DNA from: Limihaloglobus sulfuriphilus
GTDB taxonomy: Bacteria; Planctomycetota; Phycisphaerae; Sedimentisphaerales; Sedimentisphaeraceae
Length of the DNA: 64,000 bases
NCBI RefSeq assembly: GCF_001999965.1
Contig: NZ_CP019646.1
Span: forward strand, 2,976,001 to 3,040,000
Direction of reading: 5' to 3'
This document shows positions 31,812 through 54,697 of this stretch, piece by piece. The notes under the pieces are model-generated. The model did no database searches, was not told where the DNA came from, and was given only the letters and a program-made list of their open reading frames with translations. A program made the translations under genes and the position numbers. Positions within the stretch are counted from its first letter, which is position 1, and every line of letters starts with the position of its first letter.

Positions 31812-31859
31812 GTTTGAAGTTCGACCTTAAATGTTTTGAGAACGAGAAAGGAAGTTCAC

Positions 31860-33588: not shown

Positions 33589-33693
33589 ATAGAAATTTAA
33601 ATATTAAGCACCCTGCCGCGGAGGCGGGGCGTTACGGGTTTGTTATGTCCCGGTCAGTTATTTAGAGTGATATATTTTTATGGAGGTCACCAA

Positions 33694-36289: not shown

Positions 36290-36329
36290 AAAGTTGTCCA
36301 TTCTCAGTTTGGGGGTGGACAACTTTTTT
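36290..36329 (+). terminator. Rho-independent terminator after the discoidin protein gene
   Basis: A perfect 11-bp stem (AAAGTTGTCCA / TGGACAACTTT) with a 15-nt loop and a T-tract, 26 bp after the stop. Confidence 0.9.
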
Positions 36330-36448: not shown

Positions 36449-37987
36449 ATGAGATTCTTAAACCGGCGAGCATTCATCGAATCGGCAGGGTTGTTTTTAG
36501 GTTCTTCGTTTCTATCAGATAATGCTGCGGCTAAGTCTTTCTTAAATTCTGCTCTTGACCGGACGTCTGCTGCAAAACGTAATATTGTGTTTATCTTAAT
36601 TGATGATTTAAGATACGACTGTCTGGGTTTCATGGGGCATCCTTTCCTGAAGACGCCTAATATAGATAAGCTGGTGAAAAACGGGGCAAACTGCCGTAAC
36701 AGTTTTGTTACAACTTCGCTCTGTTCACCCAGCCGCGCATCAATACTGACAGGTCAGTACATGCACAATCATAAGGTTGTTGACAATAATGATATGATGC
36801 CGGCGGATGCTGTTACCTTTCCGCAATTGCTCAGAAGTAATGGATACAGGACAGCTTTTATCGGTAAATGGCACATGGGCAGCAGCAGCGATCAGCCCAG
36901 AGCCGGCTTTGATCACTGGGTCAGTTTTCGCGGGCAGGGCCAATATCTTCCTGAAGGCCAGACTCTTAATATAAATGGGACACGGGTGCCGAGAAAAAAA
37001 TACATGACAGAGGAGTTGACTGATCATGCGGTTAAATGGCTTGAGAACAGGAATGACAAAAAGCCGTTTTTTCTCTATTTGTCTCACAAAGCAATTCACG
37101 GCCCTTATGTTCCTGATAAACGGCATGAGGGTATGTACGCGGAAGAAGAATTCCCCGAGCCACAGACAATGGCAAACACAGAGGACAATTACAAAAATAA
37201 GCCCATGTGGCTGAAAAACCAGAGAAACAGCTGGCATGGTGTTGACTATCCTTATCATACACGTGAGCCTATATCCAAACAGTATAATAGATACTGTGAG
37301 ATGATTCTTTCGGTTGACCAGAGTGTCGGCCGAATTATGCAGGGCCTTAAGGAGAACGGATTTGACAAAAATACTCTTGTTGTTTTCATGGGTGATAACG
37401 GCCACTATTGGGGAGAACACGGCTTAATCGACAAACGAAGCGCATACGAGGAATCTATGCGAGTTCCCCTTTTTGCACATTGCCCCGAGCTTATCAGGCC
37501 CGGCACGGTAATAGAGGAAGTGGTCGCAAATATAGACATTGGGCCGACTCTATTGTCAGCGGCCGGCATTAAAGCACATCAGCAAATGGACGGCACAAGT
37601 TTTCTGCCTTTACTTAAAGGCGAAAAGATTTCAAACTGGCGGGATTTCCTGCTCTATGAATATTACTGGGAATATAATTTTCCGCATACGCCGACAACTT
37701 TTGCCTTGCGAACCGACCGATATAAACTTATACAATATCATGGTATCTGGGATATAGACGAACTTTATGATTTAAAGGCAGACCCCAATGAAAAAAACAA
37801 TCTTATCAACAATCCGGATTATCAGGAATTGATTAAAACGATGAGGGCCCAACTTCATGAAATTCTTAAGCGAGATAATGCAAATGTGATTCCGTTCGGA
37901 GAAAAGAAAGACCATGGCGCAAATTTGAGACACAGACAGGGTGCTGATCCTGCCGAATTTCCGCCTTTTATATTTCGAGAAAACTAA
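36449..37987 (+). CDS. sulfatase, Cys-type (type I)
   Basis: 512 residues. RRAFIESAGLFLGSSFL gives a Tat-like leader. The alkaline-phosphatase-type core starts with VFILIDDLRYD (Asp52, Asp53 as calcium ligands), and the active-site motif is CSPSR with Cys92, to be converted to formylglycine. Further motifs are FIGKWHMGS, MGDNGHYWGEHGL and the family C-terminal NEKNNL. It removes sulfate esters from glycans in periplasm or outside. A formylglycine-generating (anSME-type) enzyme is needed and is not in this window. First gene of a tight nine-gene run: the next gene starts 14 bp later. AGGAAA precedes the ATG. Confidence 0.95.
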   Translation: MRFLNRRAFIESAGLFLGSSFLSDNAAAKSFLNSALDRTSAAKRNIVFILIDDLRYDCLGFMGHPFLKTPNIDKLVKNGANCRNSFVTTSLCSPSRASILTGQYMHNHKVVDNNDMMPADAVTFPQLLRSNGYRTAFIGKWHMGSSSDQPRAGFDHWVSFRGQGQYLPEGQTLNINGTRVPRKKYMTEELTDHAVKWLENRNDKKPFFLYLSHKAIHGPYVPDKRHEGMYAEEEFPEPQTMANTEDNYKNKPMWLKNQRNSWHGVDYPYHTREPISKQYNRYCEMILSVDQSVGRIMQGLKENGFDKNTLVVFMGDNGHYWGEHGLIDKRSAYEESMRVPLFAHCPELIRPGTVIEEVVANIDIGPTLLSAAGIKAHQQMDGTSFLPLLKGEKISNWRDFLLYEYYWEYNFPHTPTTFALRTDRYKLIQYHGIWDIDELYDLKADPNEKNNLINNPDYQELIKTMRAQLHEILKRDNANVIPFGEKKDHGANLRHRQGADPAEFPPFIFREN

Positions 37988-38001
37988 TCAAAAAGGCAGA
38001 T

Positions 38002-41000
38002 ATGTTAAAATATTTAATAAAATTCTTAGTTACTTTGACGTTCTTAACTATAGCTGTTGAGCATATAGACGCAAAACCGATCAGCGGGGCTTTTATCCAG
38101 ATAAACCCGCACATGGCAGGCTACAGCCAGAGCGACTGGGAAGAAGAAGTCTCTCTGATGAAACAGTGCGGCATGGATACCGTCATTGTCTCGGCATCGA
38201 TAAGCGACGGCGGAAAGGCGCATTACCAGAGCTCGCTGGATTTCGTTACAGAGGTTGCAGATACCGCCCTGACTAAGATACTCACAGCCTGCGATGCTAA
38301 CCAGATGAAATGCTTCGTCGGGCTTGTCCACGATAACCGGTGGTGGTCGAGTATCGGCGATGAAGCAGTGCTATCTTCGATGGCGGCCAACAACATAGCC
38401 GCGGCAGATGAGCTTTTATCGGTTGCGGCGGAACACGCCAGTTTTGCCGGCTGGTACGTTACCGAGGAGATAGTTTTTAATGTATGGTCCGGCGATAACA
38501 GAGATATGCTGATCAACACCCTGCTCAATCCGGTTGTGGAGCATCTCAAATCCATCACTCCCGATAAGCCCGCGGCAACGGCTCCTTATGTATATGACAT
38601 AACCGCCGGTGCCGATAACTGCCGGCAGTGGTGGGACAATCTCTTGTCGCGGGTGGATTTTGATATTGTGATGTTTCAGGACGGTTTCGGGGCGGATATC
38701 AACAGAAAGCCCGAGCTGATTGTGCCGTATTTCAAAGGTCTCCGGCAGGCCTGCATCGATAACGGGGCAGAGCTGTGGAACGACCTTGAGGTATTCAATC
38801 AGCCCGACTGGACGGCCAAGACCTTCAGCGATGTCAGGTGGCAGATAAGCCTCAACGAAAAGCATGTCAGCAAGATTGTAACCTGGGAATGGTTTTATAT
38901 CACCCCGACACAGAGAATGAGAAGCGATGTGCGAACCGTTGACAGGCAGAACCTGTACGCCAAACTGCTGTCGCATAACAGGAACCTGAAAATAGCCTCG
39001 CTCAATAAGAACTACACGATGAGCAAACAGCCCTCTGCGAGCTACCCCGACAGTAAAAATAAGCTCACGGATTCACAGATAGATTTTGAAATGGACAGCC
39101 ATCTCGGCTATTATCTCACCTCCGGCTTCGGCGGCGGTACTTCAAGTGTATCCGTTACAATCGATCTGCGTGAGGACGTGCCGGCCGAGTACGGTTTTTC
39201 CGCTGTTTTTATGAACCGCCAGGGCTGGGGAGTAAACCTGCCGGAAAGTGTCGATGTTTATATTTCTGAGGATAACACCGCTTTTGAGAAAATCTCGCAG
39301 CTTGAGACTTTCCCCTCGGCGCAGGATTCGCTCAATGTGTATTTTGATTTTCCGCAAAAAATCATCTCGCCTCGATATGTGCGGTTTGAAATGCGGGGAC
39401 TGGGCTGGCTGATGTGCAGCGAGCTGAGCGTTTACAGGAGCGATATAAAGGGTGATTACAATTCCGACGCGCGTATTGATATAAACGATGTCAACACACT
39501 CAGCCAGAAGTGGCTGGATGGCGGTGATGAGGAGAAAGGCATAAATTACGGCGATTTTGCCGACATCGCAAGAAACTGGAAATGGCAGAGAGACCGCAGC
39601 CTGCATTTCAGAGACAAGTTCTACAAACTGCCCAACGTTCAGCTCTCACAGGGCTCGCCGTACATGCAGAACAGAACCGTTGAAAGTATTGCCTCCGAGC
39701 TGGCTGTCAACGGGGTTGAATCTATCTTCGTTATGCAGACTTCTGTAAACGGGCTCAAGCCCGGCTTAATCGATGCGCTGCGCAGCAGGGATATAGCCCC
39801 GGGGCTGATGCTCTTTGCCGATGCGGTATATACGCCGACCTCCGAGCTGCCCGAGGGCTGGGAGCAGTGGAAGATGGGCTTTCTAAACACCCCGGGCAAT
39901 AATCATTTATCATTTATCCATGACGGTTTTCGAGAGTGGATGAAGCAGCGGGCGGTAAGTCTGTGCAATGATAACGGTTTCGCGGCGGTAACATTTGCCG
40001 AACCGATGTATCCGGTTTACGACGGCATAACCAAATCGTCTGTGCGGTACGCCGATGTTTCGCAGGCGTATCAGGATATTTTTAAAGCCGACACGGGGGA
40101 GAGCGAGTTCCCCAATTTTACAGACCCCTCCGATCCGCACTATTTCAAGACGGATACGGCTCTTTATCAAAAACTCGTGCAGCACCGCATTGATTCGATA
40201 ACAGATTATTTTGATGAGATAATAAACGGTGAAGCGGGACTTAGAGAGTCCGCACCCGATACGATGGTTATAACCTGGTCTCTGGCGTGTTCCAAGCTGG
40301 AAAACGGCGGGGTTGATATTCTGCCCGAGTGGGAAGGCAACGACGCGTACAGCATTGTTAAAAACGCCAAGCCTGATATGCACTACTACCAGACGCACTG
40401 GCCGGACTGGGTTGATCCCCAGCTTTCGCCGGAGCATGTTTACAGCTACATTCCGAATTTCAGAGAGTGCTGGAAAGCCGCGCCGCAGGTAACGGTCGGC
40501 GTGCAGGACGATATCGGCAGCCACGACAACATGAGGCGAAGCAATGAGTATTATCAGAAATATCTCGAGGCCTGCGCCGCCGCCGGCGCGGTAAACTCCA
40601 CGTACTACTGTTTCTCGCTTCGCAGTGATGTATATAACTCCGCTCCGCAGCTAAAGAGAATCAGCCTCAACGACGGCTACGAGATGCCGGATATGGCCGT
40701 CTCGGCTCTGTCGGCGGAAGTTGACCAGAGGGCCGACGAAAACGGCAGACTGCTTCTGCGCATACATACAAAAGACAGTGACCCTGCAAACTGGCTTTTT
40801 ATCTCGGAAATTGAAATCAACGGCGTCTCCGGCGGGTTCACCTACAGCATCTCACCGCTGACGCCGCCGTATTCGGGCAGGCCCGACAATACCGGCAATG
40901 ACCTTGCCAACGGTGTGATAGCGGCGATGAACCTTTCAGATCCCGACTGGGTCGAATGGGCACCGGATGTCCAGGGCGCCGCTGCGTATGCTGATATTGT

Positions 41001-41418
41001 CCTGAATCTCGAGCCCGGAAGCCGGGTGGATTCTATCGATATATACTTCCTCAAATACGCCTCGACACACGTCTATCCCCCAGACCGCATTGAGCTTGGC
41101 ACAGGCTCTTATGACCTCTCTGTCAACAGCATAGACCTTGAGTTTGACCAGAGAGTGCACCCTAACAGCGCAGGGCTTATGATGACCAGAAACATCACCG
41201 ACAGTCTCGGCAATGTCTTCAAAGCGCAGAGAGCCTTCAGAGACGGAAATATGCTTATATTGGAAATGGACAGACAGGTCAAACGCGGCGATGTATTGTC
41301 GGTTGATATCGGCGGCATCAGCGATGATCCCGATTCCCGCTGGACAACGGCAAATATCGCACGGGGCAGCCTCAACACCGCGGCGGCAGGTACTGTAGTT
41401 ACCTTGACAGCGGAGTGA
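38002..41418 (+). CDS. secreted two-enzyme fusion: DUF4434-like barrel, dockerin-like linker, second putative glycosidase barrel
   Basis: 1138 residues with a signal peptide (about 1-24). Order: DUF4434-like barrel about 25-325 with the acidic set GWYVTEE (Glu155, Glu156), FQDG (Asp226), NDLE and TWEW (Glu296); a discoidin-like module about 350-470; a dockerin-like EF-hand pair about 472-530 (KGDYNSDARIDINDVNTLSQ); a second barrel about 535-880 homologous to the protein at 43746-45221 (TFAEPMYP, YYQTHWPDW, VGVQDDIGSHDN); a second discoidin-like module about 880-1025; and a C-terminal beta domain also found in that homologue. DUF4434 is a domain of unknown function related to glycoside hydrolases. 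The internal dockerin is unusual. Enzymatic activity is inferred from the conserved acids only. Confidence 0.8.
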   Translation: MLKYLIKFLVTLTFLTIAVEHIDAKPISGAFIQINPHMAGYSQSDWEEEVSLMKQCGMDTVIVSASISDGGKAHYQSSLDFVTEVADTALTKILTACDANQMKCFVGLVHDNRWWSSIGDEAVLSSMAANNIAAADELLSVAAEHASFAGWYVTEEIVFNVWSGDNRDMLINTLLNPVVEHLKSITPDKPAATAPYVYDITAGADNCRQWWDNLLSRVDFDIVMFQDGFGADINRKPELIVPYFKGLRQACIDNGAELWNDLEVFNQPDWTAKTFSDVRWQISLNEKHVSKIVTWEWFYITPTQRMRSDVRTVDRQNLYAKLLSHNRNLKIASLNKNYTMSKQPSASYPDSKNKLTDSQIDFEMDSHLGYYLTSGFGGGTSSVSVTIDLREDVPAEYGFSAVFMNRQGWGVNLPESVDVYISEDNTAFEKISQLETFPSAQDSLNVYFDFPQKIISPRYVRFEMRGLGWLMCSELSVYRSDIKGDYNSDARIDINDVNTLSQKWLDGGDEEKGINYGDFADIARNWKWQRDRSLHFRDKFYKLPNVQLSQGSPYMQNRTVESIASELAVNGVESIFVMQTSVNGLKPGLIDALRSRDIAPGLMLFADAVYTPTSELPEGWEQWKMGFLNTPGNNHLSFIHDGFREWMKQRAVSLCNDNGFAAVTFAEPMYPVYDGITKSSVRYADVSQAYQDIFKADTGESEFPNFTDPSDPHYFKTDTALYQKLVQHRIDSITDYFDEIINGEAGLRESAPDTMVITWSLACSKLENGGVDILPEWEGNDAYSIVKNAKPDMHYYQTHWPDWVDPQLSPEHVYSYIPNFRECWKAAPQVTVGVQDDIGSHDNMRRSNEYYQKYLEACAAAGAVNSTYYCFSLRSDVYNSAPQLKRISLNDGYEMPDMAVSALSAEVDQRADENGRLLLRIHTKDSDPANWLFISEIEINGVSGGFTYSISPLTPPYSGRPDNTGNDLANGVIAAMNLSDPDWVEWAPDVQGAAAYADIVLNLEPGSRVDSIDIYFLKYASTHVYPPDRIELGTGSYDLSVNSIDLEFDQRVHPNSAGLMMTRNITDSLGNVFKAQRAFRDGNMLILEMDRQVKRGDVLSVDIGGISDDPDSRWTTANIARGSLNTAAAGTVVTLTAE

Positions 41419-41484
41419 GAAAGAAGAAAATAATATTCCGGAAATAATAACTTATTATAATTATAATTTAAATAAAGGAAAACA

Positions 41485-42465
41485 ATGAGAATTACAGGTA
41501 CATTCATTGACGAAATAACGGTTGATATACCTTCGAACAACTGGAGTGCCCGGCACTGGGCTATGGATTTCAGGGCGATGAAGCATATCGGCATAGACAC
41601 AGTGATAATTATCCGTTCGGGCTACCAGAACAAGTGCATCTTCGACTCACAGGCACTGAAGAAACATGTGGGACTGATGATGCCGGTGTTTGAAGATCTC
41701 TTTGAGCTGTTTTTGTCTCTGGCTCAGGAAAACGATATGGATCTATATTTCGGAACTTATGATGATTATGAGATGCAGCACAGCGGCAATCATAAAAAAC
41801 TCATCCAGATAAACAAGGACTTCATAGACGAGGCATGGTCTCGCTACGGCTCGTACGACTCGTTTAAGGGCTGGTACGTCACACAGGAATTAGCGACAAA
41901 GGACGAGCACGGCGCTGAATGTATCAGAGACGTTGGCCTGCACTGCAAAAGCATAACCGGCCAGGATTTGCCGGTTTTGATATCCCCCTTTATCGCCGGC
42001 AGAAAACAGTTTGACAATCCGATTACTCTCGAGCAGCACGAAAATCAGTGGGACTATATGCTCTCTGTTATGCAGGGCGCGGTCGATATTGTGGCGTTTC
42101 AGGACGGAAATGTCGATTACCACGAGCTGCCCGAATACATCGCGGCAAACAAAAAGCTGCTTGATAAATACGGTATGCACTCCTGGAGCAACCTGGAAAC
42201 ATTTGACAGGGATATGCCGTATCTGCGGTTTCCCCCGACAGACTGGCGCAAGCTGTGGTGGAAGCTCGACGCGGCGGAAAAAACCGAAGTTGAGAAAATC
42301 ATCACCTTTGAGTTTTCATCGTTCATGAGCCCGTATTCATGCTGGCCCTCCGCGCATAACCTTTACGACCGGTACTGTGATTATTTCGGAATTGAAAGAC
42401 TGCAGCGCGAAGCTGAAAACGCCTCACAAAACAGACAATTTACAGCCTCCGGTGTTTCCGGTTAA
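41485..42465 (+). CDS. DUF4434-type barrel protein, cytoplasmic
   Basis: 326 residues without a signal peptide. It aligns with the N-terminal barrel of the preceding fusion protein: ITGTFIDEITVDIPSNNWSA at the start, GWYVTQE (Glu135), VAFQDG (Asp207), SNLETF (Glu238) and ITFEFSSF (Glu276). The four acids occupy the same positions as in the fusion, which suggests a shared mechanism. Its lack of a leader implies that it acts on imported oligosaccharide or sugar. It sits between the fusion gene (66 bp) and a UroD-like gene (31 bp). Family function has not been established to my knowledge. Confidence 0.8.
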   Translation: MRITGTFIDEITVDIPSNNWSARHWAMDFRAMKHIGIDTVIIIRSGYQNKCIFDSQALKKHVGLMMPVFEDLFELFLSLAQENDMDLYFGTYDDYEMQHSGNHKKLIQINKDFIDEAWSRYGSYDSFKGWYVTQELATKDEHGAECIRDVGLHCKSITGQDLPVLISPFIAGRKQFDNPITLEQHENQWDYMLSVMQGAVDIVAFQDGNVDYHELPEYIAANKKLLDKYGMHSWSNLETFDRDMPYLRFPPTDWRKLWWKLDAAEKTEVEKIITFEFSSFMSPYSCWPSAHNLYDRYCDYFGIERLQREAENASQNRQFTASGVSG

Positions 42466-42496
42466 CCGCCGCGGAAAATATCAGAAAATCCACTCT

Positions 42497-43699
42497 ATGA
42501 ACATTCAAAATAAGATAGAAAAATATTTGCAGCTCTGTTTGTCTAAGGCCAACAGGGACAAGCAGCGGCTATGGTCGGATTTTCTTGCGCTAAAGCCCTC
42601 GCGGCCGCTGGTAAATGTGTACTTCTACCAGTATGTCTGGCAGAGAGAGATCGATGACGGACGCAGAAACTATGACTGCCCGGTCGCTGATTTTATCGAT
42701 AAACAGATCAGCTACAGGCTCTGGCGGTGGGAAAACATCGATGATGATGCTCCGCTTGAAGAGTTTCTGCGGATTCCGTATGATATTCTGCACCATGCCA
42801 AACAGGTCAACCAGTACCAGAACAGTCTGTGGGGGATCGATATCGAGCTCAGCCAGAACTGTGACCAGGGCTCTTACAGTGTAGTGCCGCCGATAAAAAC
42901 GGAATCTGATATAGAAAAGATAACCCTTCCTCGGTTCGAGCCGCCTCAGGGCCTGGACGAGCTGCTGGAGAGGGCCGAGAGAATCACCGGAGGTTGTTTG
43001 CCGGTGAAGGTTGAAACCGAAAGGATGCACTGGGGCCCGTTCGAGTATATCGTATGGTTTCGCGGCATGGAAAATCTCTTCCTCGATTTTATCGACAACC
43101 CGCGGCTGGTGCACCGGCTGATGGAAATAGCCTCGGCTGGTATAATCCAGTGGCAGAGACAGCGGCAGGCTGCCGGTTTTATCGACAGCGAGCTTTCATT
43201 TTTCGGGCACGTTCCGTATGATGACTTTTGTCTGCATGGAGATTCTGCGAGTCTGAAAAGCTGCTGGGCATATCTGCACGCCCAGTCCAGCGGCACGATA
43301 TCGCCGCAGATGTACGAGGAATTTGTCCAGCCGTACAACGAACGGATCGCCGCACTTGTCGGGCGCGTGTATTATCACGGCTGCGAAAACCTCGACCGCA
43401 AAGCCGCCGTCATAAAGAGACTGCCTAACCTGAGGCTTTTTCACATTTCTCCCTGGTCTAACGTCGAGCCGATACTGGAAGAAATGGGCAGGGGCTTTGC
43501 CTACGAAGTTCACTCACACCCGACCGGCGTACTGAGCAGTTACAGCGATTCGGATATGAGCCGCGAACTCAGCTCGAGAAGCAGTATCGCCGCAGAGGTC
43601 AACCATGTATTGACACTGGCGGATGTCGAAACCGTAACCGGCAGACTTGAACGCGTCCGCGAATGGGTGCGGCTGGCTAACAAAACCGCCCGGGTTTGA
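42497..43699 (+). CDS. uroporphyrinogen decarboxylase-like protein (methyltransferase-type His-X-Cys)
   Basis: 400 residues from the ATG at 42497; earlier in-frame starts would overlap the previous gene. The fold signature is of the UroD/MtaA superfamily (for example PRLVHRLMEIASAGIIQWQR, then SASLKSCWAYLHAQSSGTIS, YYHGCENLD). His294-Gly-Cys296 sits where MtaA/MtbA-type methylcobamide:CoM methyltransferases bind zinc; a third ligand is not obvious, His residues at EVHSHP are candidates. The N-terminal Arg cluster of true HemE that binds uroporphyrinogen carboxylates is not evident. So heme synthesis is unlikely; demethylation or an unknown sugar reaction is more plausible given the locus. Another UroD-like gene lies at 47072-48214. 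Confidence 0.75.
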   Translation: MNIQNKIEKYLQLCLSKANRDKQRLWSDFLALKPSRPLVNVYFYQYVWQREIDDGRRNYDCPVADFIDKQISYRLWRWENIDDDAPLEEFLRIPYDILHHAKQVNQYQNSLWGIDIELSQNCDQGSYSVVPPIKTESDIEKITLPRFEPPQGLDELLERAERITGGCLPVKVETERMHWGPFEYIVWFRGMENLFLDFIDNPRLVHRLMEIASAGIIQWQRQRQAAGFIDSELSFFGHVPYDDFCLHGDSASLKSCWAYLHAQSSGTISPQMYEEFVQPYNERIAALVGRVYYHGCENLDRKAAVIKRLPNLRLFHISPWSNVEPILEEMGRGFAYEVHSHPTGVLSSYSDSDMSRELSSRSSIAAEVNHVLTLADVETVTGRLERVREWVRLANKTARV

Positions 43700-43745
43700 T
43701 TTATGTTTTATATTACTCTCATAAAAACTATAAAGGATTTACAAA

Positions 43746-45221
43746 ATGACAAAGCGTATAAAACTCACACCTCTGTTTGTCGTGTTTCTGTTTTTGGCTG
43801 TTTCCGGCCTGAACACTCTTTACGGCGGGGAGCTTGACCCGATGTCCGCAAAACTGCTCAGCGGCAAAACCGTGCAGGCCGATTTTGGATTCCCGCCTTA
43901 CAAAGACAGAAGCGCTTCGAGCATAGCCGAGGAGATCACCGCCAACGGTTATGACGGGGTGTATTACTTCGTATGCGCAGACAGCACCGTGAGAAAAGAT
44001 ATAATCGCCGAGCTGCAAAAGAGAGAAATTCCGGTAGCCGTGATGCTTATCGCCACCGGAGCGTACCTTCCGGCGAATGAGCGGCCCGAGGGCTGGGAAA
44101 AATGGAAAATGGAGTTTACCAGCGATGTGATGGACAGCTACCAGTTCATGTCGTTTGTCCACAAGGATTACGCGGAGTGGATGAAGCATCGCGTCGTCAG
44201 GCTGATCAATGACTGCGGGTTTGACGGGTTCACCTTCGCCGAGGCGATGTATCCAATCGCCGACGGGCTTGAACGAGAGAATGTTCTTTACGGCGACATC
44301 TCGCCGGCGTTTAGGCAGGCTTTCAAAAAAGATACCGGCAACTCCGTATTTCCCGAATTCGTGGACACGGCTAAAGCCAACTACTATAAAAAAATACCCG
44401 ATGTATATAACGATCTTGTTGAGTACAGGATCAAAACCGTCAATGACTTTTATGATGAAGTCGTCAACGGTCAGGGCGGCGTAAGGGAAAAATGCCCGGG
44501 CAAATTTGTTGCAACCTGGACACTTGGCATCAGTTTGCCGCAGGGCCTTGAAAAACTCCGCGAGTGGGAGGGCAACGATATACCGTCTATGATACGCAGG
44601 GTCAAACCGGATATGCATTTTATCCAGACTCACGCGCCTGACTGGACAAACCCGCAGCTCAAACCTGATTACCCCGGAACATATAAGCCTTTCTTCGATG
44701 CTGTAAAACAGACAGATCCGCAAATGCCGGTAGGTTTTCAGGCGGATTTCGTTTCACATGAAGATATTCGCCGCAGCCCGCAATGGGTAAAGCGGTTTTA
44801 TGAAGTTTGCGGCCGGATGGATATTGACAGCACAACATATTACGTATTCGGGCTGCGGTGGAATGTGTACCACGAACCGCCGCGGCTGTGCAGTGTCAAA
44901 CAAATCTGGAAAGATACTCTCGTTCTCTCTTTCGATCAGCGGATTTCAAAGGACTGTGAAAGAATAGTTGCCGGCAGAAAGATGATAACTGACGATAAGG
45001 GGACACAGTACAGCGTAAAAGATGCCGCGGTTGACGGCAGTCTGCTCAAACTTGTGCTGGACAAAGACATCTGCGGCGCAAAAGAAGCAAAGGTTCTGCT
45101 TGAAGGAATAAAGGACGATCCTGCATATAGATTTGAGAGGCAGGGACCCTGGCAGCCAATGCCCAAAGGAGAGACAAACGTCATAGAAAAGGGCGTGTGC
45201 CTGACACTGCCTGTTGAGTAA
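43746..45221 (+). CDS. secreted putative glycosidase, family homologous to the C-terminal half of the fusion protein
   Basis: 491 residues. A signal peptide (about 1-27) precedes a barrel domain: SIAEEITANGYDGVYYFVCA, RPEGWEKWKMEF, GFTFAEAMYPIADG with Glu166, FIQTHAPDWTNPQL, GFQADFVSHEDIRR and STTYYVFGLRW. These are matched in order in the fusion protein at 38002-41418. The C-terminal beta domain (about 385-491) is also shared. The TIM-barrel shape and the conserved Glu after the fourth strand suggest a glycoside hydrolase; I do not recognise a CAZy family. Two homologues in one operon, one secreted alone, one fused, suggest different stages of the same degradation. Confidence 0.7.
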   Translation: MTKRIKLTPLFVVFLFLAVSGLNTLYGGELDPMSAKLLSGKTVQADFGFPPYKDRSASSIAEEITANGYDGVYYFVCADSTVRKDIIAELQKREIPVAVMLIATGAYLPANERPEGWEKWKMEFTSDVMDSYQFMSFVHKDYAEWMKHRVVRLINDCGFDGFTFAEAMYPIADGLERENVLYGDISPAFRQAFKKDTGNSVFPEFVDTAKANYYKKIPDVYNDLVEYRIKTVNDFYDEVVNGQGGVREKCPGKFVATWTLGISLPQGLEKLREWEGNDIPSMIRRVKPDMHFIQTHAPDWTNPQLKPDYPGTYKPFFDAVKQTDPQMPVGFQADFVSHEDIRRSPQWVKRFYEVCGRMDIDSTTYYVFGLRWNVYHEPPRLCSVKQIWKDTLVLSFDQRISKDCERIVAGRKMITDDKGTQYSVKDAAVDGSLLKLVLDKDICGAKEAKVLLEGIKDDPAYRFERQGPWQPMPKGETNVIEKGVCLTLPVE

Positions 45222-45260
45222 GATTCACACAATACTAAGTCTATAAAGCAAAGCAGATTT

Positions 45261-47075
45261 ATGAGCAGTAATAATATGATTGACGCCGCGGTAGTGGCAT
45301 GTTACCTGATAATTACTTTCAGCGTCAGCGCGATGAGCGCGCGGTTTTTCAAAAAGAAACATGACTTTGTCAGTGAAGACGGCTACTTCCTCGCAGGCAG
45401 GAGAATGCCGGCATGGCTCAACGGGGTTTCACTGGCCGCGACGGCTCTCAACTCCAACGTAGGCCCGACCTACTGCGGCCTGGCGGTGGTGATCGGCTTG
45501 AGTGTCTGCTGGTACTATATGTCGCTTTTCAATTTTTCACTCTTGTTCGCCGCGTTTGTCTTCGCCGCGAAATGGCGGCAGATCGGCGTCTCGACAGGCC
45601 CGGAGATGGCAAAGCTGCGTTACGCCGGCAACAACGCCCGGGTCATACGAACATACGGCTCGGCCTCCATGATACTGCTGGTGATGGTGCCCTACATCGG
45701 CGTTGGCCTGCTCGGCGTACACGTTGTCATCAGTCCGATATTCAATTATGAAAGCCGCATAATAACGCTGGTGATTGTCCTGCCCGCTTTGCTGTTTTAT
45801 CTCTGGATCGCCGGTTATGCCGGTGTGGTCGTGGCGGATTTTATGCACACAGTCGTAATTGTGCTTGCAGGGGCTGCGCTTATGGTCTCCGTTCTGGTAA
45901 GGTTCGGCTCGCCCATGGCGCTGACGGAAAATATCCAAAGGGTACATTCCGAGAACTCCCCAGCGATACTGTCATTGTTCCCTTCCTGGGGCAATGAAGT
46001 TTTCAACCCGCTTATGATAGTTATATTTTTGCTGATCTACTCACTCGGCGCCGGCGGCAACATCGCCCTCGACGGCCAGAGGATACTCTCATGCAAAACT
46101 GCCAAAGAGGCAACAAAGGTCGGCATATGGGCATTAGGCGCTCTGTTTCTGATGCTGATGGCGATTACACTGCCGACAATCGGCTCACTGATCGATCATC
46201 CCGAATTTTTCAGCGCTTCTCCCTCGCAGCGCGAGCTGATATACGCTATCATGCTCAACGATTATCTGCCGGTGGGTATTCTGGGCATTGCGCTGGCCGC
46301 TATCTGCGCTTCGGCTATGAGTTCGGTTGACAGCATCCTGAGCTACTCTTCCCAGCTTATTGTAAATGACCTTGTACACCCGTTTAAAAAAGACCTCACC
46401 GAAAAACAGGGTATCTTTATCGGCCGAATCTCGATGTTTGTTATCATGGCTCTCTCGGTTATCATTGTGTTCTGGAGCAGCTCTCTCTTTGGCACTGTGC
46501 TGGTAGTAGCCGGTCTGCTGGCGCCGGCGGCGCTGCACGGCTGGGGGCAGTGGTGGTGGTGGCGGCCTAATGTGTACTCGTGGGCAACCGCGATCATCGG
46601 CGGGCCGATTGTATTTCTTTCTGTCGGCTTTTTCCTCAAAAAAATACCATGGTGGCAGCTCCAGCTCGACGCAGGCCCGGCAATGGTACAGCAGTTAGAT
46701 GCGCTGAAAATTGTTATCTCTATGGCGATCACTACGGTTTTGTGGGTGCTTGTGGCTCTTTTGACAAAGCCGGAAGATATGGAAGTTCTCAAGGATTTTT
46801 ACCGCAAGGCAAAACCAAACGGATTCTGGGGGCCTGTAAGAAAGGCGGTAGAGGCGGACGGCGATAACGTGGAAATAAGCAAATATGTCATACTCTCGGG
46901 TCTGCTGGCAGTGATCCCCGTCGCGGCATGGATAAACATGCTCGTCCTGGGATTGTCCGCCCTTTATGTCGGCAGTTATATCAAGGCCTCGCTGCTGCTG
47001 ATCGCGGCGGTTCCTACTGCTTTGATAGCGAAAAGAATTTATACATGGCACGTTGAAAGGCTCGGCGCGGAATGA
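45261..47075 (+). CDS. sodium:solute symporter, SSS (SLC5) family
   Basis: 604 residues with about 13 transmembrane segments. Family signatures: YFLAGRRMPAWLNGVSLAA near the N-terminus, the core GAGGNIALDGQRILSC, and AAICASAMSSVDSILSYSSQ near helix 8-9, which contains the Na+ site Ser residues. It should import a sugar or similar product of the extracellular degradation together with sodium. The stop overlaps the start of the next UroD-like gene by 4 bp (ATGA), linking transport to that enzyme. Substrate not predictable from sequence. Confidence 0.92.
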   Translation: MSSNNMIDAAVVACYLIITFSVSAMSARFFKKKHDFVSEDGYFLAGRRMPAWLNGVSLAATALNSNVGPTYCGLAVVIGLSVCWYYMSLFNFSLLFAAFVFAAKWRQIGVSTGPEMAKLRYAGNNARVIRTYGSASMILLVMVPYIGVGLLGVHVVISPIFNYESRIITLVIVLPALLFYLWIAGYAGVVVADFMHTVVIVLAGAALMVSVLVRFGSPMALTENIQRVHSENSPAILSLFPSWGNEVFNPLMIVIFLLIYSLGAGGNIALDGQRILSCKTAKEATKVGIWALGALFLMLMAITLPTIGSLIDHPEFFSASPSQRELIYAIMLNDYLPVGILGIALAAICASAMSSVDSILSYSSQLIVNDLVHPFKKDLTEKQGIFIGRISMFVIMALSVIIVFWSSSLFGTVLVVAGLLAPAALHGWGQWWWWRPNVYSWATAIIGGPIVFLSVGFFLKKIPWWQLQLDAGPAMVQQLDALKIVISMAITTVLWVLVALLTKPEDMEVLKDFYRKAKPNGFWGPVRKAVEADGDNVEISKYVILSGLLAVIPVAAWINMLVLGLSALYVGSYIKASLLLIAAVPTALIAKRIYTWHVERLGAE

Positions 47076-48214
47076 TCGATTTTGTAAAACACAACGAAGA
47101 AGCCCACAGGGTGTGGGACACTTATAAAAGCGGCAGCCCCATAAGGGTTCCGATGATACTCGGCATCAGCTCGAGGTTCTATCTGCTCGACAAAGATTAC
47201 AACAAAGAGGGGCTGAGCTACAAAGAGTATTTCGAAAACCCCCGAACGCTGATCGAGACACAGTGCCGCATATCGGATTTTCTGCGGCATAATGTACCCT
47301 GGGACACACCGATGGGATTGCCGGAAGATGGCTGGAGCATTATGGCGGATTTCCAGAACGTCTTTGACGCGGCGTGGTGCGGCGCAGAGATTATCTACCC
47401 CGAGAATCAGTGCCCGGATACCCGCCCGCTATTTAAAGATGATAAATACGCCCTGCTGGAAGCGTTTCCAAGAGGTGCTTTTGACGGGGTAATGGCAAAA
47501 GTAAAAGAGGTTCACCAGTGCTTTGAGCAGATGCAGGCGGAGGGATTTGAGCACAAAGGCCGGCCCCTCAAAGAGATTACAGGCACCCCCGGCACGATTA
47601 GCGACGGGGTATTCACCCTGCTCTGCCAGCTGCGGGGCAGCGAGAACGCATGTATCGACATGCTCTGCGATGAAGATTATTTTCACCAGGCAATGACACT
47701 TCTGACACAAAGCACGATAAACCGGATAACACAATGGCGAAAGTATCTCGGTCTGCCGCTCAAGACAGACGGCTTTGCACTGGCGGATGACTTTGTTCAG
47801 CTGCTCTGCGTCGAAGATTACCGGAAAAACGTCCTGCCGTATCACAAAAAGATTTATGATGCTTTCAGTTTCGGCTCGAACAATTTTATGCATCTCTGCG
47901 GCGATGCGACCAGGCATTTCCCTCTGATGGCCGCTGAGCTTGGCGTGAATCGCTTTGATACTGGTTTTCCAGTGGATTTTGACCGGCTCAGAGAGCAGCT
48001 CGGCAAAGACACAGAGATTATGGGCGGCCCGCATATAGAGCTGCTGCTCAACGGCACCAGAGAACAGGTAATCAGCCGGACAAAACAGATATTAAGCGGC
48101 AAGATTAAAAACGGCAGGTTTATCCTGCGAGAAGGCAACAACCTCGCCCCCGGGACGCCAATAAAAAATATTGAAGCCATGTACGAAACCTGTAAGATTC
48201 ACGGCAGATACTAA
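47072..48214 (+). CDS. uroporphyrinogen decarboxylase-like protein 2
   Basis: 380 residues of the UroD-like superfamily. Typical elements include DGWSIMADFQ, LTQSTINRITQWRKYLGLPL, GFALADDFVQLLCVEDYRKN and NFMHLCGDATRHFPLMAAEL. His274-Leu-Cys276 is the motif of cobamide-dependent methyltransferases, and MGGPHIELLL near the C-terminus could supply a further His. This is more typical of the family than the first UroD-like protein in this locus. It overlaps the symporter gene by 4 bp, so they are translated together. No corrinoid protein gene is visible in the window, so methyl transfer to cobamide remains a hypothesis. Confidence 0.8.
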   Translation: MIDFVKHNEEAHRVWDTYKSGSPIRVPMILGISSRFYLLDKDYNKEGLSYKEYFENPRTLIETQCRISDFLRHNVPWDTPMGLPEDGWSIMADFQNVFDAAWCGAEIIYPENQCPDTRPLFKDDKYALLEAFPRGAFDGVMAKVKEVHQCFEQMQAEGFEHKGRPLKEITGTPGTISDGVFTLLCQLRGSENACIDMLCDEDYFHQAMTLLTQSTINRITQWRKYLGLPLKTDGFALADDFVQLLCVEDYRKNVLPYHKKIYDAFSFGSNNFMHLCGDATRHFPLMAAELGVNRFDTGFPVDFDRLREQLGKDTEIMGGPHIELLLNGTREQVISRTKQILSGKIKNGRFILREGNNLAPGTPIKNIEAMYETCKIHGRY

Positions 48215-48241
48215 ATGGTAAGCAGATCATAGGAGACGAAA

Positions 48242-49815
48242 ATGGATAGAAGAAATTTTTTAAAGAACAGCGGTATGGCTGCCGCGGCTTTTGCGCTTTC
48301 AGGCTGTAATCAAAGCTCAAAAATCTTTTCCGGTTTAAAACGCAGCTCAAAACCTAATATCGTTTTTATATATGTTGACGACCAGGACAGGGCCGACCTT
48401 AGCTGTTACGGCGGCAATCTTCTGATGCCAAACATCGACAGTCTGACACAGGAGAGTATGCGGTTTGACAGGTTCTATGTATCATCTCCCGTCTGCACGC
48501 CAAGCAGGTTTTCCGCGTTAACCGGAAGATACGCCTGCAGGGGCGCGGAGATGCAGAAAATCTGGCCGGTGTTTACGGTGAGCAGAACACGATTGCCCAG
48601 GTGATGAAGAAAAACGGTTACAAAACCGGCATTGCGGGAAAATGGATGCAAGGCGTCAGTGACAAAGTCCAGATGATGGACGGCTCTCTCGATGCCCGGG
48701 ATCCTGATGTCGCAAAACGGGTAAAAGAAAATTACAAACACCTGCAGGAATCCGTGAAAAGCACGGGTTTTGATTATGCCGAGAGCCTTTATTATGTAAA
48801 TCCCGGTCAGTGGTGGAGTGATGCCCCGTTATACACTCCAAAAGAGCTTAGACATCACAATCAGGAATGGATTACTAAGGGAGCGATAGATTTTATCGAA
48901 CAATCAAAAGACGAGCCGTTCTTTCTTTATATGCCCACTACGATGGTGCATGATCCAATGGCCCATGACAGCATAAAGGCCGACCCGCAGGTTACGCAGG
49001 CAGGCTACCTGGACGAGGCTCCGGATGTTCAGCCGCCGCGGCACACGATTTTTGAAAGGCTCAAAGGCAGGGGTATTGACTTTGACAATATTAAACCTGA
49101 GCAGGAGATGCAGGCTCATTTTCTCTCCGGAACGCTCTGGCTTGATGACGGCATAGGCGCAGTGCTCGACAAACTGGACGAATTGGCTCTGGCGGATAAT
49201 ACCGTTGTCATATACGCCAGCGATAACGGAAGAAAAGCCAAGTTCTCAACCTATGATTCAGCGGCCAAGATGCCCTGCCTGATCAGATGGCCAGGGAAAA
49301 TAAAACCGGACAGCGTCTGCAATGAACTTGCCTCGAACATAGATTTCGCGCCTACGATATATGACATCTGCGGCATCACCCCGCCGTCGAATGCCGTGAT
49401 CGACGGCAAGAGCCTTTTGCCGGCTCTGACGGGAGGCCGCTATAAAAGGGATCATATTTTCATGGAGATAACGGTTGAAAGAGCTGTGGTAACTGATGAC
49501 CGGTTCAAATATATAGCCGTGCGCTATCCTCCTCAAATACGGGAAAAAGTTGACAAGGGCGAGTTGTATAACCATTGGTGTCAGCCGATGGAGTTCGGGG
49601 TGTGGGGGCATTCCTACAATGCCGAGCTGTATTACCCGTCGTATTTTGATGCCGACCAGCTCTACGACCTCAGCAAAGACCCTCACGAACAAAATAATCT
49701 TGCAGACAACCCTGACTATTCTGAAAAACTAACTCAGATGAAAAAAATTATGCGAATGTACAGCAGGAATCTGCCCCATCCCTTTGCGGAATTTAAAAAG
49801 AAAAATCAGTCATAA
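48242..49815 (+). pseudogene. sulfatase gene with a frameshift
   Basis: Two overlapping frames form one sulfatase. The first (48242-48604) has a Tat/lipoprotein leader (RRNFLKNSGMAAAAFALSGC) and the active-site CTPSR with Cys85, then loses the family pattern after GRYACRG. The second frame (open before 48601) continues GDAENLAGVYGEQNTIAQVM, KNGYKTGIAGKWMQG, and runs to the normal C-terminus at 49815 with VIYASDNGRKAKF. The shift lies near 48539-48550 at CAGGGGCGCGG. It could be a true mutation, a sequencing error in the GC-rich run, or a programmed slip. If restored, the protein is a full-length Cys-type sulfatase of about 525 residues. Confidence 0.8.
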
Positions 49816-49876
49816 AGCAGTAAAAAATACCAGCGTTGGAGTATCATAGATCTTTGTAAATTCGAGGCGTTTAAAA

Positions 49877-52198
49877 GTGAAACTGATAAAAAATTTAGGA
49901 AAATTACTGATGGTCGCGTTATTGTCATCTTCAGCCCTTGCTCAGAAAGCGGATATCCTCATCGCCGGCGGCTCGCTTGGCGGAACGGCGGCGGCCCTGC
50001 AAAGCTGCCGCATGGCGCAGGACTTCGGCATCAGCAGGATAATCATCACCGAATATACCGACTGGCTCGGCGGACAAGCGACAAGCCAGGGTGTAACCGC
50101 CCTTGACGAAAATATCTGGGTTGGTATGCACGGCAGATACGACGTCGCCGCGAGCAGGCTTTATTACCAGTGGAGTGACACCGTGCGAAACATTTATCGC
50201 CCTGATGCCCTGCATACTGCAATGACAACTCACAGAACCGGCCCGCAGGAGAGCGAGCTTCGCAAACAGGACATTAACCGCGTCAGGTCCGACACGTTCT
50301 GCCCGGGTAATGACTGGGCTTCACGGCTCTCGTATCTGCCAAAAGACGGTGTAAAGACAATCAACCAGATGCTTGAGCCGTATATCAGCAGCGGGCTGCT
50401 GGAGGTGTATTATAATTGTCAGCCCGTTGAGGTTTACAAGCAGAACGAGAAAATTACCGGCGTCAGGTTTAAAAGAAATGACGGGTCTGATTTCACTGTC
50501 GAGGCGAAGGTTGTCATCGACGCCACCGAGCTGGGAGACCTTCTGCCGCTAAGCGGTACAGAATACCGCGTCGGTGTCGAGGCGTCTATGGATACGATGG
50601 AGCCGAGTTTGTTTGACAAGGATAACAAGCCGATTTTTGACCGTATGTACGCAGACGGCGCTCAGTCGTTCACCTATACATTTGCTCTTGAGTGGTGCGA
50701 CCCAAAAGAAGATCACCGCGGCGACTGGAACGAGAGACCCGCCGATTATGATGAGCTGAAAAAGGATTTCGGACTTAATTCATACCTGTTCGCCCGGACA
50801 AACGTTTACAACATGAGCCTTGGCAACGCCTGGCCCGGGGAGAGCTTCTGGTCGTACCGGCGGATGTATGATGCGATGAATTTTAATCCGGATATCAAAC
50901 CGGATCTGTACCCGAGATTTCGTGATGGTGAATGGATCACCGAGTTTGACCCCGAAAAAACCGGCTGGGCATTTATCCCCAGTACCGCAAGCACCAATAT
51001 CGGCGATATCGCCGAGATAAACTGGGGCTCAAACGACTACAAGGGCGGCACAATAATCGATGTTCCCCTGGAAATACGCGCCCGCCGCCTGCAGGAAGCA
51101 AAAGATCTCTCTATCGCGTTTCTCTACTGGATGTGGTACGAGTGCCCCAGAGACCCCGCGGATATAACAAAGGACTGGCGGGACGAGGAGAACTTCTCTA
51201 TTGATCCGGTTACCGGCAAGAACCGCGGCTATGCCAACCTCAAGCTGCGAAAAGATGTATTTGACACAGAGGACGGGCTCAGCAAATACCCCTATATCAG
51301 AGAATCACGCAGAATATTACCGATCCGCCGCGTGCGTGAGCAGGATGTCGCAGGGCCTACAACCAACCGCGCGAGGAACTTTCATGACAGCCTGGGTATC
51401 GGACATTACTATATTATGGATTCACACGCCTCAACCGAACGGGCTCAAATCGCCGGCCGTCCCTGTTCGCAGTTTCAGCTGCCGATGAGGGCGATGGTAC
51501 CGGTCAAAACAGAAGGCCTGCTGCCCGGCTGCAAAAATGCCGGTCTCACCCACCTTACCTCCGCGGCGTACCGAATGCATCCGACAGAGTTTCAGTTTGG
51601 CCAGGCGGCGGCGGTGATGGCGGCTATGAACATAAAGCATGGCCTGGAGTTTCGCGAGATGCTTGAATTATCGCCGAATCCGCTCAACCCCTCACCTGCT
51701 GAGATAGCGTTGCGGAAGGTGCAATATGAGCTGTTGCAGGCCGGCACACCGATATATTGGAATTTTGACGCGGGCTGGAAGCATGACGAATTTATTGCTG
51801 TTCAGTTTGCCTGCGTTTTGGGGATTATCGAGCCTGTTGAGAATAAATTCCTGCCTGAGGCGGACTTCACCAGGGCAGACGCCGTCAAAGCCGCTTACGC
51901 CCTGAACGCTGCCAGGCATCGCGACGTTTTCAACACCCGTTTTAACGATGTTGATATTTCCAAAAAGGCAGAACTTGCGGAGGCGTTGAGCTGTTTAGAA
52001 GACAAAAAAGCCCTGAGCTGGCTTGCGGGCAACAAATTCCAGCCCGAATCAGCCATCACCGCCGACGAGTTTTCCAGAACACTCGCCGCGGTAACCGGTA
52101 TGGACGTAAAATCAGCCGGTGCAGAAAATCTCACACGCGCCGGCGCCGCCCGGCTGGTATTTGATTATCTAAGCGAGCTTTATCAGCTGACAAAATAA
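49877..52198 (+). CDS. secreted FAD-dependent oxidoreductase
   Basis: 773 residues starting at a GTG with GAGG 9 bp upstream. A signal peptide (about 1-22) precedes ADILIAGGSLGGTAAALQSC, a variant of the dinucleotide-binding GxGxxG, and EYTDWLGGQATSQGV, which matches the FAD_oxidored (PF12831-type) family; EAKVVIDATELGDLLPLSG is the second conserved segment. The C-terminal 150 residues are helical with repeats (DAVKAAYALNA; AITADEFSRTLAAVTGM) resembling SLH-like domains. Family members are found in polysaccharide loci of planctomycetes and related bacteria but their substrate is not established. The 61-bp gap to the broken sulfatase gene suggests same operon. Confidence 0.85.
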   Translation: MKLIKNLGKLLMVALLSSSALAQKADILIAGGSLGGTAAALQSCRMAQDFGISRIIITEYTDWLGGQATSQGVTALDENIWVGMHGRYDVAASRLYYQWSDTVRNIYRPDALHTAMTTHRTGPQESELRKQDINRVRSDTFCPGNDWASRLSYLPKDGVKTINQMLEPYISSGLLEVYYNCQPVEVYKQNEKITGVRFKRNDGSDFTVEAKVVIDATELGDLLPLSGTEYRVGVEASMDTMEPSLFDKDNKPIFDRMYADGAQSFTYTFALEWCDPKEDHRGDWNERPADYDELKKDFGLNSYLFARTNVYNMSLGNAWPGESFWSYRRMYDAMNFNPDIKPDLYPRFRDGEWITEFDPEKTGWAFIPSTASTNIGDIAEINWGSNDYKGGTIIDVPLEIRARRLQEAKDLSIAFLYWMWYECPRDPADITKDWRDEENFSIDPVTGKNRGYANLKLRKDVFDTEDGLSKYPYIRESRRILPIRRVREQDVAGPTTNRARNFHDSLGIGHYYIMDSHASTERAQIAGRPCSQFQLPMRAMVPVKTEGLLPGCKNAGLTHLTSAAYRMHPTEFQFGQAAAVMAAMNIKHGLEFREMLELSPNPLNPSPAEIALRKVQYELLQAGTPIYWNFDAGWKHDEFIAVQFACVLGIIEPVENKFLPEADFTRADAVKAAYALNAARHRDVFNTRFNDVDISKKAELAEALSCLEDKKALSWLAGNKFQPESAITADEFSRTLAAVTGMDVKSAGAENLTRAGAARLVFDYLSELYQLTK

Positions 52199-53022: not shown

Positions 53023-53100
53023 ATTTTGAATGTAATATATACAAACCGATATTACAACAAAAAAATGCACAAGGTTGTTTTGCATACAGGGCAATCGCAT

Positions 53101-54252: not shown

Positions 54253-54306
54253 AATTTTCCTCGTTTTAACGTTGCAAAGATATAGAATACTATATATTAT
54301 ACTATA

Positions 54307-54585: not shown

Positions 54586-54625
54586 AAAATGATATTTTAG
54601 ATGCGATTGCCCTGGTTTTGCATAA

Positions 54626-54669: not shown

Positions 54670-54697
54670 TGTATAGGTGGTTCGCTTTCGTCCTCTG

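Follow-up and report, generated by a model that had tools for sequence, protein, structure and literature searches.

Gene content of the locus

The window analysed here, a stretch of 64,000 nucleotides from the marine-type bacterium Limihaloglobus sulfuriphilus (contig NZ_CP019646.1), carries at 36449-52198 ten same-strand ORFs that make up nine genes, g1 to g9, at 3.01-3.03 Mb in the genome. With the features upstream, they are:

31836..32810, + strand: pseudopilin-like protein carrying an N_methyl motif (PF07963, 3e-7); lies upstream, is syntenic and is probably transcribed separately
33640..36264, + strand: secreted protein; three stretches of F5/8 type (galactose-binding-like; PF00754, 1e-22); lies upstream and is syntenic
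36290..36326, + strand: hairpin resembling a terminator, ahead of the operon, with a stem of 17 bp, a loop of 3 nt and a U-tract (MFE -22.4, z -4.63)
36449..37987, + strand: g1, S1-type sulfatase with CSPSR motif, exported by eye (PF00884, 2.9e-65)
38002..41418, + strand: g2, exported fusion of DUF4434, F5/8, dockerin-like and P5 domains with a discoidin-like insert (PF14488, 4.3e-42 at 27-301)
41485..42465, + strand: g3, putative glycosidase of the DUF4434 family, cytosolic by eye for want of a signal peptide (PF14488, 6.7e-69)
42497..43699, + strand: g4, divergent UroD-like protein (PF01208, 2e-7; 17-sequence alignment)
43746..45221, + strand: g5, "P5", exported, TIM-barrel glycosidase-like (no family over cut-off; predicted structure)
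45261..47075, + strand: g6, sodium:solute symporter, SSS (PF00474, 3.1e-33)
47072..48214, + strand: g7, UroD-like, carrying an H-x-C motif and cytosolic by eye (PF01208, 8.3e-21)
48242..48604, + strand: g8, 5' part, covering the N-terminal portion of a sulfatase, including a TAT signal and a CTPSR motif (PF00884 positions 1-64; TAT_signal)
48601..49815, + strand: g8, 3' part, remainder of this sulfatase, read in a different frame (PF00884 86-301; 9fvt, 1.2e-44; frame analysis)
49877..52198, + strand: g9, exported FAD-dependent oxidoreductase (PF12831, 1e-67)

This nine-gene row is a genuine operon, with successive intergenic distances of 14, 66, 31, 46, 39, -4, 27 and 61 bp. An earlier note on this DNA had described nine genes on one strand with gaps of 14-66 bp and one 4-bp overlap, which holds; it missed that the second sulfatase, g8, is divided between two frames. 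Its observation is thus confirmed in part, and its interpretation likewise supported in part. The families it named hold, namely two sulfatases, two putative glycosidase families, an SSS symporter, an FAD oxidoreductase and two UroD-like proteins, and also the absence of SusC/SusD, as none of the ten ORFs matched such a family. The symporter g6 belongs to the SSS family by PF00474 (115.7 bits, cut-off 22.8) and scores below the stricter TIGR00813 (100.5 vs 184). For g4, an alternative upstream start exists (GTG at 42377), which would create an overlap. Signal peptides were judged by eye, and g3, g4 and g7 are called cytosolic in that no signal was noticed. No solved structure is related to g9 at E<=0.01, and three transposase genes lie directly behind that gene.

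The hairpin stands between the F5/8 gene and g1, and 1 of 200 shuffles was equally good. Both upstream genes have counterparts at a related locus (L046): the F5/8 protein matches the ORF immediately upstream of the g2 homologue (47% over 878 aa), and the pseudopilin-like protein an ORF at the matching relative position (46% over 254 aa). This synteny indicates a locus larger than g1-g9, probably extending to the F5/8 gene, even though the hairpin sets that gene apart from g1.

The DUF4434 and P5 families

Both g3 (233 bits) and g2 (145 bits) exceed the PF14488 cut-off of 30 bits. The predicted structure of g3 is closest to 4h41, the homologous DUF4434 protein BT_0435 of Bacteroides thetaiotaomicron (8e-79), with Z 42.8, rmsd 1.5 and 47% over 300 residues, followed by Cwp19, GH5, GH164 and GH42. 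E135 is invariant in 8/8 sequences, and fold and invariant acid together mark g3 as a putative glycosidase. The name "putative alpha-L-fucosidase" attached to 4h41 is the depositor's label only. Titles and abstract openings yielded no printed activity for 4h41 or BT_0435, the matches being to a rhizobial strain or due to chance, and a search for literature on DUF4434 found none.

No Pfam or NCBIfam model matches P5 over its cut-off, and the family has no sequence relative in the PDB, where g5 alone gave a chance match only. The g5 model (pLDDT 93.2, pTM 0.90) is nevertheless a confident TIM-barrel glycosidase fold; its closest solved folds are PgaB (Z 25.1, rmsd 3.3, 303 residues aligned), Cwp19 (23.4) and GH42 (22.4), and families absent from the fold tables are not thereby excluded. 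E166 after β4 and D334 after β7 are invariant in 44/44 P5 sequences, and published passages place acids at these sites in GH42 and PgaB as well (PMC5765458). The g5 model therefore resembles the C-terminal domain of PgaB (GH153) and Cwp19 (GHL10) in barrel fold and in the acid ending β4. Unlike in fold, g5 has no relation to either in sequence: the 44-sequence P5 profile matches no PgaB chain at E<=1, the catalytic Asp of PgaB is Glu in P5, and g5 has Glu at β4 and Asp at β7, where passages on GHL10 give Gly. Comparison of the P5 and DUF4434 profiles gave a probability of 1.7%, so no sequence relation between the two is shown. Fold and invariant acids make g5, too, a putative glycosidase; to our knowledge, no enzymatic activity has been assigned to either family.

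The 1138-residue g2 combines both families, which are also present as separate neighbouring genes (g3, g5). Its domain order is DUF4434 (27-301), F5/8, dockerin-like, P5 (545-890), discoidin-like insert and P5 C-terminal domain, and it matches g5 at 41% over 342 aa. Fusion to P5 sets DUF4434 here apart from 4h41. The two share a single ORF in four of 63 related loci (L105, L109, L111, L115), in the window and in both clusters of another Sedimentisphaerales genome, G099, making six genomes in all. P5 itself is present in 3/161 genomes of the order and 8/397 of the class sample, its own included in each, with relatives in Bacteroidota, some near SusD/DUF5000-type genes. In the ORF calls, 57 of the 63 loci, mostly from Paenibacillus, show no DUF4434 and no g6-type SSS (these calls passed over P5 at L056 and L103 in favour of longer frames on the antisense strand, and L056 was re-read), so P5 works in other settings too. 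Scans of its neighbours (101/106 and 56/59 listed proteins, from a selected 40 of the 63 loci) returned mostly families that are ordinary neighbours there.

Conserved gene order and the sulfatases

Conservation of gene order, the check proposed in the earlier note, is found for blocks of the row, but the full nine-gene order was seen in no other genome searched. In G099, contig 25 carries pseudopilin, F5/8, g2, g3 and g5 genes in the same order (57%, 69% and 67% identity for the last three) plus a g6-type SSS (44%), and contig 9 carries g2, SSS, UroD and UroD. A row in Victivallis vadensis (L056) comprises pseudopilin-like, DUF4434-like, SSS, DUF4434 and P5 genes. DUF4434 (g3), P5 (g5) and the SSS symporter (g6) are the conserved core shared with G099 and V. 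vadensis. Within the stretch read, the G099 cluster holding g3 and g5 has no UroD gene, and the UroD cluster of that genome is without separate g3 and g5 genes.

Like SusCD-type PULs of Bacteroidota, the operon groups glycosidases, sulfatases, binding modules and an uptake system on one strand; unlike them, it has no SusC/SusD match and would rely on an SSS symporter for uptake. Many S1 sulfatases are described in passages on anaerobic marine relatives, the sulfatase-rich PVC genomes of Sedimentisphaera and Kiritimatiellales (PMC6388578), a text in which "uroporphyrinogen" and "symport" do not occur.

The sulfatases differ in state. g1 is one intact ORF with the C-x-P-S-R maturation motif and 221 bits to PF00884, an S1 sulfatase; its nearest solved structures are the mucin-desulfating sulfatase 7p24 (1.1e-82) and the GlcNAc-6-sulfatase 5g2v (3.4e-77), at an identity too low to assign specificity. 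Its GC3 is 0.445, against 0.55-0.64. g8 is frame-broken in this assembly at ~48553-48569, a site crossed by one open frame in the nine homologue loci examined (L143-L151; L144 flagged with an in-frame TGA). The 19-kb stretches around both G099 copies are free of sulfatase genes, and the claim of a sulfated substrate is therefore weakly supported: it has two sulfatase genes in its favour, but one is broken and the other deviant in GC3. Nothing in the analysis points to carrageenan, porphyran or pectin, which had been put forward as substrates to try. Beside this core, the sulfatases and the UroD-like pair have the look of additions that vary or still puzzle.

The proposed pathway and the UroD-like pair

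On balance, we regard it as probable that g1-g9 form an operon for the catabolism of one complex glycan, organised around a symporter in place of SusC/SusD, with exported depolymerisation, symport, and cytosolic cleavage and sugar conversion; the use of a symporter without SusCD, as the earlier note had it, is supported. The exported enzymes would act first: the fusion g2, anchored to the glycan by its F5/8 domains, the free P5 protein g5, the oxidoreductase g9 and, on sulfated variants, g1. A small oligosaccharide would enter through g6 by putative sodium-driven import and be cut in the cytosol by the signal-less g3, and g4 and g7 may then convert the released, probably unusual, sugar. A 2024 survey states, in a passage on the subject, that CAZyme clusters have to its authors' knowledge not been functionally characterised in Planctomycetota (PMC11131199). 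Sedimentisphaerales genomes are rich in sulfatases and glycosidases, and this operon is a compact, testable unit offering these two enzyme families, repeatedly fused to each other, with P5 lacking any Pfam model. One assigned activity would aid annotation across Planctomycetota, Victivallis, Paenibacillus and Bacteroidota.

g4 and g7 both exceed the cut-off of PF01208, which they share with MtaA, CmuA and HemE, while reaching neither the curated subfamily cut-offs nor the full zinc set of these enzymes. The best curated models for g7 are the MtaA/CmuA and MtbA methyltransferases, at 63.3 bits to MtaA/CmuA against a cut-off of 235.4, and it lies below every curated NCBIfam cut-off; g4 has no NCBIfam match. 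MtaA-type zinc ligands are H-x-C plus one C-terminal Cys. The H-x-C is kept (H-L-C in g7, H-G-C in g4), but the third Cys is replaced in g7 and both its orthologues (N-N instead of G-C) and absent from g4; in the same genome, L021 and L024 retain it. In the 17-sequence alignment of the g4 subfamily Cys296-Glu297 is invariant, and relatives have Gly at g4's His position.

The genome holds 36 UroD-like genes, a family whose clustering adds to the interest of the operon. Fifteen lie within 5 kb of a sulfatase gene (5.2 expected; 11/5000 rotations) and 11 within 5 kb of an SSS gene (3.3 expected; 5/5000), compared with 6/36 in the SSS-sulfatase control (5.1 expected). With the operon's own two genes excluded, the counts are 14/34 (18/5000) and 9/34 (35/5000). 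Elsewhere, 21 g4-type contexts were compared (22 inspected, L167 dropped with its gene under the label threshold; several end at contig edges). None has a sulfatase within 4 kb, which argues against UroD-like genes being generally linked to sulfatases beyond this genome; by raw counts, nine have a further UroD-like gene on the same strand within 4 kb, eight an SSS or RhaT gene, and six both. Titles and abstract openings held nothing on UroD in glycan loci, and no literature tying UroD to sulfatases and polysaccharides in Planctomycetes was found. We tentatively suggest that the UroD fold may include an unrecognised sugar-converting class in this phylum, with symporter-linked pairs (one member of the g4 type, in which Cys-Glu is invariant, the other with H-x-C but lacking the third zinc Cys) acting on glycan-released monosaccharides, and that P5, as a partner of DUF4434, may be a glycoside hydrolase family yet to be assigned.

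Particular substrates are less well served by these data. An N-acetylhexosamine-rich glycan (PNAG-like, or mucin- or GAG-like and partly GlcNAc-6-sulfated), cut by P5 as a PgaB-like endo-hexosaminidase, seems unlikely. The fold of P5 and the nearest relatives of g1 agree with it, as do genes of the GlcNAc 2-epimerase family next to P5/DUF4434 in L060, L062, L116 and G099, a GH20 gene in L060, and NanE, ROK and RpiR families among Paenibacillus neighbours. However, the epimerase family PF07221 includes epimerases of neutral sugars too, the PgaB catalytic Asp is not kept, the sulfatase identities do not assign specificity, and GH27 in G099 and GH29/GH95 near g4-type genes elsewhere suggest other sugars. 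Raw sightings near g4-type genes elsewhere (GH29 in L137, L156 and L167; GH95 in L135 and L155; RhaT in L136), with the label of 4h41, would fit a fucose- or rhamnose-type 6-deoxyhexose glycan whose imported deoxysugar is the substrate of the UroD-like pair; this is quite unlikely, as fucosidases are common in the phylum anyway and GH29, GH95 and RhaT are absent from this operon.

A dedicated pathway for a sulfated and O-methylated glycan, with g4 and g7 as corrinoid-dependent demethylases passing methyl groups on, is very unlikely. The two sulfatase genes, the best models of g7 and the H-x-C motifs speak for it, but the low g7 score, the lost third Cys, the Gly in g4 relatives (though Cys-Glu is kept) and the sulfatase-free G099 copies speak against it. 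No corrinoid protein gene lies near the operon, the only two PF02607 (B12-binding_2) genes in the genome being at 508,615 and 1,344,232 (0.51 and 1.34 Mb). With this distance and the incomplete zinc set, corrinoid demethylation by g4 and g7 was rejected, and a methylated substrate, which the earlier note had read from the UroD-like proteins, is not supported. Least probable of all is a loose island of glycan genes gathered by transfer, partly decaying and without a single substrate, for although the broken g8, the deviant GC3 of g1, the transposase genes and the rarity in the order fit it, the tight spacing, the 4-bp overlap of intact genes and a core recurring across phyla do not.

A link of UroD-like genes to nearby GFO/IDH/MocA dehydrogenases in this genome is not convincing (5/36 vs 2.25 expected; 412/5000 rotations). 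Genes of this dehydrogenase family nevertheless stand beside a g7 orthologue (L134) and beside some g4-type genes.

Operon layout and boundaries

The single-contig, 3.87-Mb genome of Limihaloglobus sulfuriphilus carries a symporter-type glycan locus, the core of which is two glycosidase-like families. Its nine genes (g1-g9), comprising ten ORFs, lie on one strand at window 36449-52198 with successive gaps of 14, 66, 31, 46, 39, -4, 27 and 61 bp; this one-strand spacing (-4 to 66 bp) bears out the operon proposed in the earlier note. Pfam matches are to sulfatase (g1), DUF4434 (g2 and g3), UroD (g4 and g7), SSS (g6), a second sulfatase (g8) and FAD_oxidored (g9), and none of the ten ORFs matches a SusC or SusD family, as had also been proposed. 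Across the genome, S1 sulfatase genes number approximately 77, UroD-like genes 36 and SSS genes approximately 36.

Both sulfatases are present as families, but the second is not a single intact gene: g8 is split between two frames (window 48242-48604 and 48601-49815). A single open frame crosses the break site in homologues from other genomes of the order (L143-L151, among which L144 is flagged for an in-frame TGA), and the split may represent either decay or an assembly error. GC3 of g1 is 0.445, versus 0.55-0.64 for the other operon genes, a deviation that may reflect a separate origin. An additional sulfatase, 31% identical to g1, lies outside the operon on the minus strand (window 61236-63032), and three transposase genes, one IS200-like and two of DDE types, directly follow g9 (window 52564-56682).

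A 17-bp hairpin followed by U's (window 36290-36326, z -4.63) sits approximately 25 bases 3' of the upstream gene and before g1, which makes g1 the probable start of a transcript. The functional locus probably starts near 31.8 kb, because two genes upstream of the operon have matches that keep the same relative places in contig 25 of G099, another Sedimentisphaerales genome:

Start at 31836: pseudopilin-like gene, upstream of the operon; matches a G099 contig 25 gene, 46% over 254 aa
33640-36264: F5/8 gene, upstream of the operon; matches a G099 contig 25 gene, 47% over 878 aa

N_methyl-type pseudopilin-like genes recur near glycan/UroD loci (L136, L137, L138, L046 and window 31836-32810).

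Folds and candidate catalytic residues

The g5 protein, whose family we name P5, matches no Pfam model above its cut-off and no NCBIfam model. Its AlphaFold2 model (44 sequences; pLDDT 93.2, pTM 0.90) comprises a (β/α)8 barrel at residues 40-366 and a C-terminal β domain. The closest solved fold is the PgaB C-terminal domain (Z 25.1, rmsd 3.3, 303 aligned), followed by Cwp19 (Z 23.4) and GH42 (Z 22.4); PgaB is also the top Foldseek match (3.8e-12). The 44-sequence profile finds no solved sequence relative, matching just a designed protein (E 0.086). Residues R55, E63, E166, D289, H296, D299 and D334 are invariant in all 44 sequences, with E166 placed after β-4 and D334 after β-7 in the strand order of the model. 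A passage of the Cwp19 paper discusses the ends of these strands as catalytic in PgaB, GH42 and GH5 (PMC5765458), and a passage on PgaB gives the β-4 Asp as the sole residue with activity lost in both replacements (PMC5933820). Since E166 and D334 occupy these positions, they are a reasonable putative catalytic Glu/Asp pair of modeled g5.

The model of g3 (8 sequences, pLDDT 87) is closest to 4h41 (BT_0435, labelled putative α-L-fucosidase; Z 42.8), with Cwp19 (Z 21.4) and GH5, GH164 and GH42 (Z near 20) further away; W130, Y131, E135, D201, Q206 and D207 do not vary among the eight sequences. Profile comparison found no sequence relation between DUF4434 and P5. Both are fused in g2 (1138 aa), the N-terminal part of which is a DUF4434 like g3 (27% identity) and the C-terminal part of which resembles g5 (41% over 342 aa). 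F5/8 and dockerin-like stretches lie between them, and a discoidin-like insert precedes the last P5 piece; the 992-aa homologue on G099 contig 9 is without this insert.

Distribution of the core

P5 is uncommon among close relatives: counting L. sulfuriphilus itself, three of 161 genomes from the order and eight of the 397 sampled from the class have it. G099 contig 25 features g2, g3 and g5 homologs in operon order (57%, 69% and 67% identity), followed by two further DUF4434 genes, ADP-ribosylglycohydrolase-family, GH27 and GlcNAc-2-epimerase-family genes, and an SSS gene (44% identity). Contig 9 features g2 (62%) and SSS (50%) homologs, together with two UroD-like genes, of which one shares 42% identity with g7. 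Another P5 copy, on contig 24 (L140), is partial, matching residues 6-171 at 55% and having an open frame of 212 aa. A Victivallis vadensis row (L056) comprises pseudopilin-like, esterase-like, DUF4434-like, SSS, DUF4434 and P5 genes, with the pseudopilin-like, esterase-like and 421-aa DUF4434-like labels assigned by eye.

Scanning 84,980 species genomes yielded 63 P5 loci, the majority in Paenibacillus and Bacillus and the remainder in Bacteroidota, Armatimonadota, Victivallales and Phycisphaerae. P5 and DUF4434 share one ORF in four of these, giving six genomes with fusions together with the window and G099; by ORF calls, 57 loci contain neither DUF4434 nor a g6-type SSS. Within 10 kb of P5 are an ADP-ribosylglycohydrolase-family gene (7/63), an FAD oxidoreductase (3/63; directly 5' of P5 in L059, directly 3' in L063) and a GlcNAc-2-epimerase-family gene (3/63 clear, plus one weak). 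The Gordonibacillus kamchatkensis P5 gene (L118 9773-11358) is broken into two overlapping ORFs.

Comparison with g1 and g8 by blastp gave no sulfatase in the 19-kb stretches around the G099 contig 25 and contig 9 clusters, and phmmer queries with g1 or g8 gave none in any of the 63 P5 loci. The absence around both G099 clusters weighs against the sulfated glycan of the earlier note, for which the operon's own sulfatases speak, and leaves that term weakly backed.

UroD-like genes and a proposed pathway

The genome holds 35 PF01208 matches in addition to g4; counts in another genus of the family are 17 and 8 in two genomes, and 0 at threshold in two less complete ones. In the L. sulfuriphilus genome, a sulfatase is present no more than 5 kb from 15 of the 36 UroD-like genes (expected 5.2; reached by 11/5000 rotations) and an SSS gene no more than 5 kb from 11 (expected 3.3; 5/5000), with the SSS-sulfatase control at chance level (6/36, expected 5.1). 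Relatives of the divergent g4 occur in 18 of 161 genomes, own included. Elsewhere, 21 contexts of these g4-type genes (≤4 kb, same strand) contained a second UroD-like gene in nine, SSS or RhaT in eight and a sulfatase in none. The more general theme is therefore that UroD-like genes pair up and keep company with sugar importers; the link to sulfatases is, as far as tested, peculiar to this genome. Near g4-type genes, GH29 or GH95 genes are present in L135, L137, L155, L156 and L167.

Residues C296 and E297 are invariant in the g4 subfamily (17 aligned). Counting L. sulfuriphilus, three of the 161 genomes carry a g7 orthologue. The g7 protein features H-L-C, with N-N at what we take to be the third zinc Cys position of UroD-type methyltransferases; both orthologues (G462, G099) share this replacement, which leaves the suggestion of a methylated glycan without backing. 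L021 and L024, two other proteins of the L. sulfuriphilus genome, retain H-x-C and G-C. One g7 orthologue stands in a gene row (L134 6116-15442) that also encodes GFO/IDH/MocA dehydrogenases, a protein of GH123_N type and another resembling xylose isomerase, a putative sugar pathway with UroD and without labelled SSS or DUF4434.

By eye, signal peptides are present in g1, g2, g5, g8 (which matches a TAT model) and g9, and absent from g3, g4 and g7. This division suggests an order in which g1, g2, g5, g8 and g9 would be exported as a depolymerising set, g6 would import the products, g3 may cleave them in the cytosol, and g4 and g7 would process them there. Given a putative cytosolic glycosidase, the imported substrate would include oligosaccharide, not monosaccharide alone. 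Substrate cues compete: the PgaB fold of g5, the nearest sulfatases of g1, and the epimerase and NanE/ROK families elsewhere point to a hexosamine, whereas GH29, GH95 and RhaT close to g4-type genes point to a deoxysugar.
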